NCBI RefSeq assembly: GCF_041821045.1
Contig: NZ_JBGUAW010000003.1
Coordinates: 62,001-126,000 of the forward strand
From: Thiohalorhabdus sp. Cl-TMA
Lineage (GTDB): Bacteria > Pseudomonadota > Gammaproteobacteria > Thiohalorhabdales > Thiohalorhabdaceae
Reading direction: 5' to 3'
DNA length: 64,000 bases
In this document: positions 11,938-18,483 of the stretch, piece after piece
Layout of the letters: each line of letters opens with the position of its first letter
Numbering within the stretch: position 1 is the stretch's first letter
The notes under the pieces: model-generated
The model's input: the letters and a program-made list of their open reading frames with translations, nothing else
What the model was told of the DNA's origin: nothing
The model's database searches: none
Program-made: the position numbers and the translations under genes

Positions 11938-13227
11938 ATGACCCAGCCCGTGACTTCCAGCCAGGGGACCGAGAATTGGCCCACGCGGGCCCTCGACCAC
12001 GTCTGGTACCCCTACGCCCAGATGCGGGACATGGATCCGCCGGTTGCGGTGGCCGGGGCGGAGGGCTGTCGGATCCGGCTGGCCGACGGCCGGGAGCTGG
12101 TGGACGGCACCGCCTCCTGGTGGTCGGCCTGTCACGGCTACCGCCATCCGCACATCATGGAGGCGGTGCACCGCCAGCTCGACGTGCTGCCCCACGTCAT
12201 GCTCGGCGGCATGACCCACGAGCCGATCATCCGCCTGGCCGAGCGGCTCGCCGACAAGGCCCCGGGTGACCTCGCCCACGCCATGTTCACTGAATCGGGC
12301 TCCGTTTCGGTGGAGGTGGCGCTCAAGATGGCCCGCCAGTACTGGGACAACCGGGGCGAGACCCAGCGCGACCTGTTCATCGCCTTCGAGAACGGCTACC
12401 ACGGCGATACCGCCGGCTGCATGGGCGTCTCGGACACCTACCGCGATCTCCGGCCCCGATTCCGCGGTCTCGCCCACGAGCACGTCACCGTGCCGCTGCC
12501 GCCCGAGGAAGGGCCGTGCGCCCTGGAGCGGGCCCTGGCGGAATACGGAGAGCGCGTGGCGGGGGTGATCACGGAGCCGCTCATCCAGGGAGCGGGCGGC
12601 ATGCTGGTGCACTCCCCGGCGGTCCTGCGCCGTGCGGCGGAGCTGGCCCACGGCGCCGGCACCCTGTTCATCGCCGACGAGATCGCCACCGGCTTCGGCC
12701 GCACGGGCAGCCTGTTCGCCAGCGAGCAGGCAGGGGTGGCTCCCGACATCATGTGTCTGTGCAAGGCCCTCACCGCGGGCACCATGCCCATGGCGGCGAC
12801 CCTGGCCACCCGGGCGGTGTTCGAGGGATTCCACGGCCCTGACGAATCCACGGCGCTCATGCACGGACCTACCTTCACCGGGAACCCGCTGGGGGCCGCG
12901 GCGGCGAACGCCTCCCTCGACCTCTTCGAGCGCGAGCCGCGCCTGGCCCAGGTGGCGGCCCTGGAGGCCCAGCTCGGCGAGGAGCTCGCGCCCCTGGCTG
13001 AACTCCCCGGCGTCGTCGATGTCCGCATTAAGGGGGCCATGGGTGCGGTTCAGCTCGCCACGGATCGCCACAAGGATTGGATGCGCCACCGGTTCGTGGA
13101 CCACGGCGTATGGATACGACCGCTGGGCGATATCGCCTATGTCACACCCCCGCTGGTCCTCGCCGGCGACGACCTCTCCCGCCTGACCGACGCCATGGGA
13201 CGGGTGATCCGGGAGGCCTTCGCCTGA
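11938..13227 (+). CDS. bioA: Adenosylmethionine-8-amino-7-oxononanoate aminotransferase
   Basis: BioA converts 7-keto-8-aminopelargonate to 7,8-diaminopelargonate using SAM as amino donor. The 429-residue class III aminotransferase has the BioA landmarks HVWYPYAQM near the N-terminus, GTASWWSACHGY, TESGSVSVEVALKMA, FENGYHGDTAG, IADEIATGFGRTG and the PLP lysine at about Lys276 in CKALTAGTM. Length is normal. It stands alone on the plus strand, apart from the bioFHCD operon 1.2 kb downstream on the other strand, which is an unusual but known arrangement. Confidence 0.97.
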   Translation: MTQPVTSSQGTENWPTRALDHVWYPYAQMRDMDPPVAVAGAEGCRIRLADGRELVDGTASWWSACHGYRHPHIMEAVHRQLDVLPHVMLGGMTHEPIIRLAERLADKAPGDLAHAMFTESGSVSVEVALKMARQYWDNRGETQRDLFIAFENGYHGDTAGCMGVSDTYRDLRPRFRGLAHEHVTVPLPPEEGPCALERALAEYGERVAGVITEPLIQGAGGMLVHSPAVLRRAAELAHGAGTLFIADEIATGFGRTGSLFASEQAGVAPDIMCLCKALTAGTMPMAATLATRAVFEGFHGPDESTALMHGPTFTGNPLGAAAANASLDLFEREPRLAQVAALEAQLGEELAPLAELPGVVDVRIKGAMGAVQLATDRHKDWMRHRFVDHGVWIRPLGDIAYVTPPLVLAGDDLSRLTDAMGRVIREAFA

Positions 13228-13342: not shown

Positions 13343-14005
13343 ATGGCTATGGCCCAGCCCCAGCAATCGCCGAATATTATGAGCATGGCCATCCGCGACC
13401 CCCATCGAGGCCTGTATCAGGTGGCCTTCAACGACGGGGTGTCCGGGGTCCGGGTGGAGGTGCCCTTCGAAGAAGCGGCCAGCGTCCGCGAGGCGCGCAT
13501 CAAGGCCGAGCACACCCTGCAGTACCAGGAATGGCTGCGGCACAAGCGGCTGCGCGAGCACCGCATCCGGCAGCTCGTGGGGGACTACAACGGACTGACC
13601 TACAACAAGCCGGTCCCCGGCAGTGACGACCTGACCGACGTGGACCCCGACGGCCTGGCGGATCACCTCATCGACCGGTTCGCCGAGGGCGAGCGGCGCA
13701 GCGTGTCCTACGGCGTGGGCGCCATGCTGCGCCACACCCTGGTGCTCCTGGAAGCGGCCCACCGGCTGCGCGGCGAGGGCGAGTGGAGCCTCTCCTACGC
13801 CTACCGCATGCTCGAGGACCTGCGCCTGATCCGGCGGCTCGGCGAATCGCTGACCGTGCGCGAGGTGGAGAAGGAGGTGCGGCTCGAGGACGCCGTGCGC
13901 TACTGGAACGCCATCAAGGACGGCCACCTGTCCCCGGCCATCCGCGACCAGCTGCGCCGCCGGGCCAAGGCCTGGCTCCGCCGCTACATGAGCCACCCCG
14001 ACTGA
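13343..14005 (+). CDS. Conserved hypothetical protein, helical
   Basis: I do not recognise this 220-residue protein. It starts MAMAQPQQSP after a purine-rich GGGAGGAGGCGAG, has a short beta-like N-terminal region (YQVAFNDGVSGVRVEVPF), then long charged helices rich in Arg and Glu ending in WLRRYMSHPD. It has no signal peptide, membrane helix, or metal or nucleotide motif. It follows bioA by 115 nt and ends 38 nt before a strong terminator, so it may be the last gene of the bioA transcript. Codon use is like its neighbours, so it is very likely real. Confidence 0.75.
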   Translation: MAMAQPQQSPNIMSMAIRDPHRGLYQVAFNDGVSGVRVEVPFEEAASVREARIKAEHTLQYQEWLRHKRLREHRIRQLVGDYNGLTYNKPVPGSDDLTDVDPDGLADHLIDRFAEGERRSVSYGVGAMLRHTLVLLEAAHRLRGEGEWSLSYAYRMLEDLRLIRRLGESLTVREVEKEVRLEDAVRYWNAIKDGHLSPAIRDQLRRRAKAWLRRYMSHPD

Positions 14006-14411: not shown

Positions 14412-15119
14412 TCACTCCCCCCGGCCGATGCCGAAGGTCTCCACCAAGTCGGGCATCCCCGCCTCCTCTCCCGTCCCCTCCGCGCGCGGCACCACCGCCA
14501 TGGGCAGCTCCGGATGGAAGAAGCGCAGGGTGCGCCGCGTCTCCTCGGCGGGCACCGGCTCCTCGGGGCTGCGGTTGAGCACCAGGCCGGCCAGCGGCAC
14601 GCCGGCTCCCTTCAGGCTCTGCAGGGCCGTCAGGGTGTGGCTCAACGTGCCCAGGTAGGTGCCGGTCACCAGCAGGGCCGGCCACTGCAGGGCGGCCATC
14701 CAGTCCAGGAAGGTGGTGCTGTCCGTGAGGGGCACCATCACGCCGCCCACGCCCTCGGCGATCACGCAGCCGTCGGTCTCGCCCTCCAGGCCCTGGCAGT
14801 AGCCCGTGAGCATCTGCAGGGATAGGATGCGGCCGGCCCGGTCCGCGGCCATGTGCGGCGACATGGGCTCCCGGAGGCGCTCCAGGCACAGCCGTTGGTG
14901 GGCCGCCCAGTCGTCGGGGTCCTGGCCGCAGGCGTCCAGCAGCACCCGGCCGTCCGGGCTCCAGAGGCGGCCCTGGGCATCCTCGTCGCAGCCGCTGCTC
15001 ACGGGCTTGGTGGCCAGCACCGTCTCACCCCGGCCGCGAAGCTGCCGGGCAACGGCGGCGGTGATGTAGGTCTTGCCGATCTCGGTGCCCGTACCCGTTA
15101 CCACCAGCGTGCGATTCAC
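14412..15119 (-). CDS. bioD: Dethiobiotin synthetase
   Basis: BioD closes the ureido ring of dethiobiotin with CO2 and ATP. The 235-residue protein starts at GTG 15119 with NRTLVVTGTGTEIGKTYITA, where the P-loop is GTGTEIGKT (about residues 9-17). Other family segments are ATKPVSSGC, SPHMAAD, VIAEGVGGVMVPLTDS and GTLSHTLTAL. The GTG start overlaps the stop of the upstream methyltransferase in GTGA, so translation is probably coupled. It is the last gene of the operon. Confidence 0.95.
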   Translation of the reverse strand: MNRTLVVTGTGTEIGKTYITAAVARQLRGRGETVLATKPVSSGCDEDAQGRLWSPDGRVLLDACGQDPDDWAAHQRLCLERLREPMSPHMAADRAGRILSLQMLTGYCQGLEGETDGCVIAEGVGGVMVPLTDSTTFLDWMAALQWPALLVTGTYLGTLSHTLTALQSLKGAGVPLAGLVLNRSPEEPVPAEETRRTLRFFHPELPMAVVPRAEGTGEEAGMPDLVETFGIGRGE

Positions 15120-15790
15120 GGTGCTCTCTCTCCTTTGGCTTGCTCCGACAGCCTCTGCGCCGCGCTCCGCGTCAAGTAGCGGCCCGGCACCGGAACCAGT
15201 CCCGGGACCCGGCGCCGGTAGGCGCGGTAGGCAGCTCCGTAGGCGTGGATCAGTTTGCGCTCCTCGAGCCGGGAGCCGATGACGAGGTAGGCGGTGACGC
15301 TGAGCGCCGTCAGGAATTGGGCCAGGTCGAGGCTCCGGGTCCACAGCACCACCAGGCCGAAGAAGTACCAGGGGTGGCGGAGAAACCGGTGAAAGCCGGA
15401 GATCCGCAGGGGGTCGCGCGGCTCCACGCCGCCGCCCGGCTTTCGCCATTGGCGCAGGCCCAGGAAATGGCGCATATCGTAGGCGCGCAGGCTGACGGCG
15501 AAGCCCGCCACGGCGAGCAGTGCCGCCGCCTGGGCGGCCCACCAAGCCGGGCCGCGCCATTCCAGGATCATGGGGCCGCCGAGCCGCGTGGTGAGCCACA
15601 AGGGTGGCAACAGCAGGAGCACGGCGGCCAGGTTGTAGGCGAGCCGGTAGGCGCGCGCCGCGGTCCTCCCGAGGCGGGCGGCCCGGGCCTTGGTGCCGCG
15701 CGCGGCGAGGGCCGAATGCACGGCGAAGTAGGCCGCCCAGAGGGCGACCAGGCCGAGATAGGAGCCGGGCTGGGCTAGAAAGGCTTCCAT
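15116..15790 (-). CDS. ICMT/NnrU-like membrane methyltransferase inside the biotin operon
   Basis: The 224-residue protein has five or six hydrophobic helices. Its C-terminal half has the isoprenylcysteine carboxyl methyltransferase/NnrU pattern: FHRFLRHPWYFFGLVVLW, then EERKLIHAYGAAYRAYRRRVPGLVP. These are the SAM-binding residues RHP and the late E-E and Y-x2-Y-x3-VP. Such proteins methylate small or lipid-linked carboxyl or amine groups at membranes. It overlaps bioC by 16 nt and bioD by 4 nt, so it is firmly inside the bio operon. A biotin-related role is inference only; substrate unknown. Confidence 0.85.
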   Translation of the reverse strand: MEAFLAQPGSYLGLVALWAAYFAVHSALAARGTKARAARLGRTAARAYRLAYNLAAVLLLLPPLWLTTRLGGPMILEWRGPAWWAAQAAALLAVAGFAVSLRAYDMRHFLGLRQWRKPGGGVEPRDPLRISGFHRFLRHPWYFFGLVVLWTRSLDLAQFLTALSVTAYLVIGSRLEERKLIHAYGAAYRAYRRRVPGLVPVPGRYLTRSAAQRLSEQAKGERAP

Positions 15791-16596
15791 CCCACCAGGT
15801 ATCCCACATGCCAGGTTACCGGCACCGGCCCCGCCGGGCGCTCCGTGGTCTCCCGGTAGGCGCGGCACAGGCTGTCCAGGTGGCGGCGGCCGCGCAGCCC
15901 GCGTGCCCGGTCCGGGCCCTTGGCTACCGCACCCAGGCCTTTGAGGTCGCGCAGCACCGCCATGGGGCCCGGGGCCTCGTCCTCCTCCAGGACGGTCCGG
16001 CATTCGTATCCCGCCAGGCCCGCCGAGGCCAGGGCGGCCTCGGCGTCGGAGGTTTCGAGAAAGGGACCCGCGCGGCCCGCCCCGCCGGTCCGACGCAAGG
16101 CGGTATCCAGCTCCCGGAGGGTCCCCGCCAGCAGCGTGCTGGCGATCAGCAGTCCGCCCGGCCGCAGGGTGGCGACGATGCCGCGCAGGGCGGCCCGAAG
16201 GTCGTTGGCCCACTGGAGCGTCAGGGAGGAGACAACCGCGTCGAAGGCGCCGGGGACGAAGGGGAGCCGGTCGGCGTCGCCGGTCACCGCCGGGTGCCCG
16301 GGGACCCGCCCGCGCCGCGTCATGGGATGAGCCAGGTCCAGGGCCACCACCGCTTCGGGGGCGGCGGTCCCCGCCATCAGGTCGCGCCCCACGTAGCCGG
16401 TTCCGCAGCCGAGATCCAGGACGCACGCCGCGTGCGTCGGGGCCAGCCCCCGGTACAGCTCGGCCACTTCCGCCGCCACCCGGCGCTGGAGCGCCGCATG
16501 GCGGTCGTAGGTGGCGGCCGCCCGGGCGAAGTCCCGGCGAACCGCACGTTTGTCGAAGACCTCCTCAGGAGGACAGGTTTCGGGCGAATGCGGCAA
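15775..16596 (-). CDS. bioC: Malonyl-ACP O-methyltransferase
   Basis: BioC methylates malonyl-ACP so that fatty acid synthesis can build the pimeloyl chain. The 273-residue class I SAM methyltransferase has FARAAATYDRHAALQ near the N-terminus, motif I VLDLGCGTGYVG, VVALDLAHPM, DADRLPFVPGAFDAVVSSLTLQW and LRPGGLLIASTL. These are classic BioC features, including the ATYD-x-HA start. It overlaps bioH by 32 nt and the ICMT-like gene by 16 nt. Confidence 0.94.
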   Translation of the reverse strand: MPHSPETCPPEEVFDKRAVRRDFARAAATYDRHAALQRRVAAEVAELYRGLAPTHAACVLDLGCGTGYVGRDLMAGTAAPEAVVALDLAHPMTRRGRVPGHPAVTGDADRLPFVPGAFDAVVSSLTLQWANDLRAALRGIVATLRPGGLLIASTLLAGTLRELDTALRRTGGAGRAGPFLETSDAEAALASAGLAGYECRTVLEEDEAPGPMAVLRDLKGLGAVAKGPDRARGLRGRRHLDSLCRAYRETTERPAGPVPVTWHVGYLVGWKPF

Positions 16597-17311
16597 TGTG
16601 CTGTCCCGTCTCCTCGGGATGGGTGACGTGGGGGGCGTGGCCGGCCCCCTCGATGCGTTGGCCCAGGAACCGGGGCCCGCACTCGGCGAAGAAGTCGACG
16701 GCGGCGGGATCCACCACGGCGTCGCCGGTGCCGTGCAGAATCAGCACCGGCAGCTCCAGCGCCGGCGGCTCTGCGGTGAGGTCCGCGGCTTCCAGAACGT
16801 CCAGCCAGTCCTGAAGGGTCTCGGCGGCGGTCCCGGCCGCCAGCAGGCGGTCCCGGATGGCGGCCGGCGCCCATTGCGAGCGCGGTGCCCGATCCCCCTG
16901 GAACTGCAAGGTGTAGAAGCGGCGAAGGGTACCCTCGGGATCGTCGCCCAGGCCAGCCCGGAAGCGATCGAGCACTGCCGGCTCGAGCCCGGCCGGGTAG
17001 GTGGGGCGGCGCAGGAAAGCCGGAGGCGTGGCCACCAGGATCAGGCCGAGCGGCCGGATCACGCTCCGACGCACGGCTTCCAGCGCCACCAGCCCGCCCA
17101 ACGACCAGCCCATTACCAGGTCCCAGTCCCCCGGCAGAGCGTTCGCGGCCTCCTGCAGCCCGGGCGTGCCCGGCGTCGGGGTCTCCCCAGGGGCTGCGTG
17201 TCCGGGTAGGGCACGGGGCGTCAGCTCCACGCCCTGCGGCGCCAGCCGCTCCCAGCACCGCGGGGAGTGCCCCCAGCCCGCCAGAGCGAGGGTGCGCAGC
17301 GGCCGGTTCAC
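16565..17311 (-). CDS. bioH: Pimeloyl-ACP methyl ester carboxylesterase
   Basis: BioH removes the methyl ester after the pimeloyl chain is complete. The 248-residue alpha/beta hydrolase has LALAGWGHSPRCWERLAP at the start, the nucleophile Ser70 in MGWSLGGLVALE, Asp197 in LHGTGDAVVDP and His225 in GAGHAPH. This is a full catalytic triad. Translation starts at GTG 17311, overlapping the bioF stop as GTGA. The larger frame to 17965 is a shadow over bioF. Confidence 0.94.
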   Translation of the reverse strand: MNRPLRTLALAGWGHSPRCWERLAPQGVELTPRALPGHAAPGETPTPGTPGLQEAANALPGDWDLVMGWSLGGLVALEAVRRSVIRPLGLILVATPPAFLRRPTYPAGLEPAVLDRFRAGLGDDPEGTLRRFYTLQFQGDRAPRSQWAPAAIRDRLLAAGTAAETLQDWLDVLEAADLTAEPPALELPVLILHGTGDAVVDPAAVDFFAECGPRFLGQRIEGAGHAPHVTHPEETGQHIAAFARNLSS

Positions 17312-18483
17312 GAGGCCTCCATGGATGCCCGGTCCACCCAGGGCGCCAGGGCCTCGGCGAGCGCCTCCACGTCCGATTCGGTGTGCGGCGCGCGCAGGGT
17401 AACACGTAGCCGGGCCGTGCCTTCCGGAACCGTGGGCGGCCGGATGGCCTGCACCAGCAGCCCGGCCTCCAGCAGGTCCTCCTGGGCGGCCAGTGCCAGC
17501 CGGTCCGCGCCCAGCACCACGGGTACGATGGCACTGGCCGGCTCCGCCAGCCCCAGGCGTTCGCAGAGTCGGCTCGCCAGGGCGCGGGGGCGCGCGCAGA
17601 GCGCGGGGTCGTTGCGGATCCGACGCAGTCCGGCGGTGTTCCCCGCCACCGTGGCCGGCGGTAGGGCGGTGGTGTAGATGAAGCTGCGGGCCCGGGTCCG
17701 GATCAGGTCCGCCACTTCCCCGTGGGTGCAGAGATAGCCTCCGTAGCCGCCCACCGCCTTGGACAGGGTGCCCATCTGCAGCGGCACGGCTTCCGCGTCC
17801 AGGCCCGCGGCGGTCGTGCCCCCCGCGCCGCCGCCCACCACACCGATGCCGTGGGCGTCGTCGGTCATGAGCCAGCAGTCGAATTCGGCGGCGAGCGCGG
17901 CCAGCTCGCGCAGGGGTGCCAGGTCGCCGTCCATGGAGAACACGCTGTCGGTAACCAGCAGGCAATGGCGGGCCCGCTCCCGGTAGCGCTCCAGGCGCGC
18001 GCGCAGGGCGTTGGTGTCCGCATGGGGGAAGCGGACCATGCGTGCGCCGGACAGGCGGGCGCCGTCCACCAGACAGGCGTGGTTGAGCTTGTCCGCGAGG
18101 ATGAGGTCGTGCCGGTCCACCAGGGCCGGGAGGATGCCGAGGTTGGCCAGGTAGCCGCTGCCGAAGACCACCGCGTCCTCGGTGCCCTTGAGGGCCGCCA
18201 GCTCCGTCTCCAGCTCGGCGTAGGGGGGATGGTCCCCGGTTATCAGGCGGCTTGCGGCGCCGCCGGCGCCATGCGCCTCCAGGGCCCGGCGGGCGGCCTC
18301 GGCCACCTCCGGGTCGCGGGCCAGGCCCAGATAGTCGTTGGAGGAGAAGTCCACCAGCGTCCGGTCCCCGCGCAATACCCTGCGCGCGTCCAGCACCGCC
18401 GTCGGGGCCGGCGAGCGGCGGCGGCCGGCGGCCTCCAGGTCGTCGAGGGTGCGACGGGCATGCTGGCGCAGGGAGCTGGGCAT
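17308..18483 (-). CDS. bioF: 8-amino-7-oxononanoate synthase
   Basis: BioF condenses pimeloyl-ACP with L-alanine. The 391-residue PLP enzyme has FSSNDYLGLA, HGAGGAASRLITG, VVFGSGYLANLG, LNHACLVDG, VTDSVFSMDGD, TDDAHGIGVVG and the PLP lysine Lys242 in GTLSKAVGGYGG. Length and motifs are standard. It starts 4 nt after the small TPR gene, so it is the second gene of the operon. I found no obvious BirA operator (TTGTAAACC-type) upstream. Confidence 0.96.
   Translation of the reverse strand: MPSSLRQHARRTLDDLEAAGRRRSPAPTAVLDARRVLRGDRTLVDFSSNDYLGLARDPEVAEAARRALEAHGAGGAASRLITGDHPPYAELETELAALKGTEDAVVFGSGYLANLGILPALVDRHDLILADKLNHACLVDGARLSGARMVRFPHADTNALRARLERYRERARHCLLVTDSVFSMDGDLAPLRELAALAAEFDCWLMTDDAHGIGVVGGGAGGTTAAGLDAEAVPLQMGTLSKAVGGYGGYLCTHGEVADLIRTRARSFIYTTALPPATVAGNTAGLRRIRNDPALCARPRALASRLCERLGLAEPASAIVPVVLGADRLALAAQEDLLEAGLLVQAIRPPTVPEGTARLRVTLRAPHTESDVEALAEALAPWVDRASMEAS

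Follow-up and report, generated by a model that had tools for sequence, protein, structure and literature searches.

The membrane-bound, SAM-dependent enzyme MddA converts methanethiol to dimethylsulfide (PMC5607357), and its activity has also been reported for H2S (PMC12904073). Biotin operons are described as usually having overlapping genes (PMC5438404). The gene under study encodes a membrane methyltransferase and lies in such an operon in the sulfur bacterium Thiohalorhabdus sp. Cl-TMA, within a window that comprises the whole analysed stretch of 64,000 nucleotides. Its nearest characterised clade is MddA (NF045656), likewise a membrane protein with the RHP, EE and Y-x2-Y motifs and the N-terminal H-S-x2-A-x4-K...R residues, but forming a separate clade, with lengths of 250-290 aa as compared to about 220 aa in the window family, and found together with the window family in two genomes. 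ICMT proteins (Ma-ICMT 4a2n, 5v7p) share the superfamily fold and the C-terminal SAM-site motif, but not the N-terminal residues of the window protein. NnrU (PF07298) is also a membrane protein, which some homologs match weakly, whereas the window protein does not match it and a separate true NnrU is present in the genome. BioC, the malonyl-ACP O-methyltransferase, is the product of the adjoining gene and another SAM methyltransferase, but it is a soluble Rossmann-fold protein of unrelated fold, already encoded one gene upstream.

Organization of the operon and selection on the gene

The minus-strand order of genes is TPR, bioF, bioH, bioC, the methyltransferase gene and bioD, with bioA on the opposite strand (Table 1) and bioB located on a different contig of the genome. 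Since the methyltransferase gene overlaps translationally with both bioC and bioD, its co-expression with the biotin genes would be expected. However, bioF and bioH overlap by 4 nt and bioH and bioC by about 32 nt, and because overlapping is thus the style of the whole operon, the overlaps do not single out the methyltransferase gene. A purine-rich stretch within the end of this gene, AAAGGAGAGAGAG, could act as a putative ribosome site for bioD. Among the biotin proteins, BioF, BioD and BioA score above their NCBIfam cut-offs, and BioC and BioH fall below theirs, yet are the best matches by far.

Table 1. Coordinates of the methyltransferase gene and of the surrounding biotin genes in the window
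Feature	Coordinates	Strand	Basis or remark
Membrane methyltransferase, MddA-sister clade, 224 aa, ATG start	15116..15790	-	profile matches, tree, alignment, model
bioC end / methyltransferase gene start overlap, 16 nt	15775..15790	-	kept in congener G001
Methyltransferase gene end / bioD start overlap, 4 nt GTGA	15116..15119	-	
bioC, malonyl-ACP O-methyltransferase	15775..16596	-	TIGR02072 160 bits, below 185 cut-off; start codon uncertain
bioD, dethiobiotin synthase, GTG start	14412..15119	-	NCBIfam above cut-off
bioH-like esterase, GTG start	16565..17311	-	TIGR01738 103 bits, below cut-off
bioF	17308..18483	-	NCBIfam above cut-off
TPR protein, 113 aa	18488..18829	-	separated from bioF by a few bases; same place in all three genus members
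bioA	11938..13227	+	NCBIfam above cut-off

The copy in the congener G001 has 72-73% identity and occupies the same place in the operon, where both overlaps are kept, with ATGGAAGACGTCCTAG (16 nt) at bioC and ATGA (4 nt) at bioD. A simple Nei-Gojobori estimate between the window genome and G001 gives a dN/dS of 0.29 for the methyltransferase gene, as compared to 0.26-0.34 for the operon's four bio genes. The gene is hence under purifying selection in its present position, and a chance ORF is excluded because homologs with 32-72% identity exist and the dN/dS value lies within the range of the bio genes.

The TPR gene is another member of the operon without a known biotin role. Between bioA and bioD, positions 13343-14005 of the plus strand encode a 220-aa protein without a Pfam or NCBIfam family, which exceeds the bio genes in conservation, being 95% identical in G001 and 77% identical in G002, the third member of the genus.

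Assignment to a clade beside MddA

The methyltransferase is a five-helix membrane protein, whose AlphaFold model has a pLDDT of 93.6. Comparison of the family profile with Ma-ICMT (4a2n) in the PDB aligned 189 positions, nearly the full length, with an E-value of 7.8e-6, and searches of the PDB with the single sequence or, by Foldseek, with the model alone returned no match and no match below an E-value of 0.001, respectively. Alignments of the model gave Z values of 7.3-8.3 with ICMT and 7.7-8.6 with steroid and sterol reductases, which for a helical protein support the superfamily only. Judged by its predicted membrane fold and the C-terminal RHPxY...EE...YxxY core, the protein belongs to the broad ICMT/PEMT superfamily.

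Across 46 homologs, RHP (138-140), EE (176-177) and Y188-x2-Y191 are invariant or nearly so, and 22 columns are invariant, including H25, S26, A29, K34, Y48, R49, R138, H139, P140, Y142, E176, Y188 and Y191. RHP, E177, Y188 and Y191 are common to the methyltransferase family, MddA and the ICMT-like rows of the alignment. By contrast, H25, A29, K34, R49, W150, Y168 and L180 show no variation in either the methyltransferase family or MddA but are not invariant in the ICMT-like rows, and the serine of the N-terminal H/S/A/K/R set is likewise common to these two families only, in the comparison with ICMT-like proteins from the same class.

The profile scores point in the same direction, the best NCBIfam match being MddA (60.5 bits against a cut-off of 270), followed by isopcys_mtase (NF040696; 23.5 bits against 160), while Pfam ICMT reaches 14.6 bits against a cut-off of 24. 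A search of the window protein with PF07298 gave no match, and the sole PF07298 match in the genome, NnrU proper, sits elsewhere on contig C11. In a maximum-likelihood tree, with its root at the midpoint and a bootstrap that is not fully settled, the methyltransferase family forms its own clade (support 100/97) beside MddA (99/96), and both stand on one side, with the long-branched ICMT-like proteins set apart (94/81). The protein falls outside the MddA clade, and with a score far below the MddA cut-off it is not MddA proper; on these alignments and profiles it is a member of a well-supported, uncharacterised clade sister to MddA. The preliminary description had reported an ICMT/NnrU-like membrane methyltransferase inside the biotin operon. 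Re-reading reproduced its coordinates, the 16-nt and 4-nt overlaps with bioC and bioD and the C-terminal RHP...EE...YxxY motif, and membership in the ICMT superfamily is borne out by the motif core and the profile match to Ma-ICMT 4a2n. The labels ICMT and NnrU themselves had to be given up, as the protein fails both curated ICMT cut-offs and has no match to PF07298, MddA being the nearest characterised family.

Relationship to biotin synthesis

The same description regarded the gene as tied to biotin synthesis and as encoding a second carboxyl methyltransferase of the biotin unit. Such an enzyme, or a membrane helper of BioC, would make or protect the methyl ester in pimelate synthesis, and the position between bioC and bioD with overlaps retained in G001, the occurrence of carboxyl methylation in the ICMT superfamily and a mild enrichment of bioD among genomes with the gene (54/57 vs 254/313 without it, p 0.011) could all be cited in its favour. 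However, the third genus member has the same order TPR-bioF-bioH-bioC-bioD, where the gap of about 40 nt that separates bioC from bioD contains no gene (G002 is 82% complete, the stretch being intact), BioC itself is present in the operon, and the substrate-side residues follow MddA and not ICMT.

The distribution outside the genus also argues against a biotin role. A survey covered 370 gammaproteobacterial genomes, each at least 90% complete, and took as carriers the 57 genomes in which a family member scored 200 bits or more. Judged from the positions of bioD and from the flanks of retrieved loci, linkage to bioD occurs among these only in the window genome (G000) and G001, both of this genus (the check covered the carriers other than G059 and G215). 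When the available flanks of 55 homologous loci were searched by tblastn with the bio proteins of the window, none (0/55) had a bio gene. A bioD match is missing from three carriers (G134, G152 and G284), and G134, rated 100% complete, carries the methyltransferase gene without bioB and without bioD. The mild bioD enrichment would be what free-living genomes give. A literature search for ICMT-like genes in bio operons returned nothing relevant.

Outside the genus, the methyltransferase gene therefore shows no linkage to biotin synthesis and no dependence on it, and on present evidence its product is not a biotin enzyme, so that a part in pimelate ester chemistry is highly improbable. What stands of the suggested tie is the co-expression implied by the overlaps; a biotin role does not stand, given the empty site in G002, the absence of linkage in the carriers checked outside the genus and G134. 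The outcome that the description itself named as refuting, a random placement of the gene in relatives, is the one observed, homologs elsewhere having unrelated and varied neighbours. The gene is best read as a lineage-specific passenger that rides in the bio operon of two out of three members of the genus. This removes a tempting but wrong lead, namely that the BioC-BioH pathway might have a second esterifying enzyme, and cautions against inferring function from a single tight operon position.

Genomic neighbourhoods of the homologs

Elsewhere, homologs lie next to genes for RsgA, RNase T/RNase H, Rsd, an ion channel, GGDEF/EAL proteins, ArgJ, a Na+/H+ antiporter and others, with flanking genes called by a home-made caller, so that an individual neighbour may be wrong. 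A search for a conserved operon partner covered 39 same-strand neighbours, which represent 51 Pfam families, none of them found in more than three. Clear recurrence was limited to two pairings, one with MnmH in a single GTDB family (and at L033 and L037), the other with the RNase H/RNase T region in Sulfuricella-type genomes. In G011, G247 and G323, MnmH follows directly downstream, with either an overlap of a few bases or a gap of at most about 20 nt, and it is equally close in G152, these four genomes belonging to one GTDB family. At the level of loci, mnmH (tRNA 2-selenouridine synthase) abuts homologs at L002, L110, L033, L037 and L039, several of which overlap, again mostly in one GTDB family.

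This juxtaposition, with MnmH abutting or nearly abutting in G011, G247, G323, G152, L033 and L037, might suggest that the methyltransferase acts together with MnmH in selenium or tRNA thiolation chemistry. However, MnmH is not enriched genome-wide in carriers (12/57 vs 50/313, p 0.34) and a search of the window genome found no MnmH match. A functional linkage, which had looked likely at first, was rejected because the pairing is largely restricted to one GTDB family and lacks genome-wide co-occurrence, and we give this explanation very little credence.

Possible sulfur link and proposed function

The gene soxB (TIGR04486) is present in the window genome and enriched in carriers, 43/57 having it as compared to 117/313 non-carriers (p 1.5e-7). 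The contrast persists by GTDB family (about 25/33 vs 51/133, the family total being approximate; p about 2e-4), which is the only level at which kinship is handled in these statistics, lifestyle and genome size being uncorrected. As an independent check, the enrichment fits a sulfide or thiol substrate and lends support, short of proof, to a role in sulfur chemistry; lifestyle could explain it too. Because the N-terminal residues are common with MddA, a small sulfur substrate is suggested, and the methyltransferase is probably an MddA-like S-methyltransferase. Its substrate may nevertheless differ from that of MddA, since the score lies so far below the MddA cut-off; moreover, G017 and G038 each carry true MddA alongside the window-type family, so that their substrates may differ and the two are not simply interchangeable. 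A search of the window genome found no true MddA. G002, which is without the gene, has a true MddA (L107:4878-5747; 328 bits, above cut-off).

We favour, with middling confidence, a membrane SAM methyltransferase of the MddA-sister clade that likely acts on a small sulfur substrate and is a passenger of the bio operon without biotin catalysis. The C-terminal half with RHP, EE and YxxY would bind SAM as in ICMT and MddA, and the N-terminal half with the MddA-type H-S-A-K-R residues presumably forms the substrate pocket, in which sulfide, methanethiol or a related thiol would be methylated at the membrane. The gene may have entered the operon between bioC and bioD in a common ancestor of the two genus members that have it there, or it may have been lost from the third; an inserted gene would then have become translationally overlapped with bioC and bioD, and be co-expressed with the biotin genes while taking no catalytic part in biotin synthesis.

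The main competitor is a PEMT-like lipid or quinone methyltransferase, or an enzyme for another small membrane-soluble substrate, with no sulfur link. It draws on a weak Pfam PEMT match of 19 bits (with an E-value of 1.3e-7 in the best homolog) and on weak DUF1295 and NnrU matches in some homologs. However, the PEMT score of the window protein is below the cut-off, MddA is the nearest clade whose reaction is known, and the soxB enrichment agrees better with sulfur, which makes this explanation rather unlikely. Less probable still, and in our view doubtful, is the stronger proposal of a new class of membrane S-methyltransferase (for H2S, MeSH or another thiol) in sulfur- and iron-oxidising Proteobacteria, placed here under biotin-operon control for a physiological reason.

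The work also marks out an uncharacterised and widespread clade of MddA-like membrane methyltransferases that is concentrated in soxB-carrying bacteria. If this clade does methylate sulfide or methanethiol, it would be an additional source of methylated sulfur gas, which MddA models miss at their cut-off.

A paralog of BioC in the genus was also considered as a link and set aside. This second BioC-like methyltransferase (TIGR02072, 139 bits) is present in all three genus members (G000:C1:137118-137861; L104:5047-5949 on the plus strand; also L105 and L106), a few genes from those for a UbiH-type FAD monooxygenase and dihydroorotate dehydrogenase.
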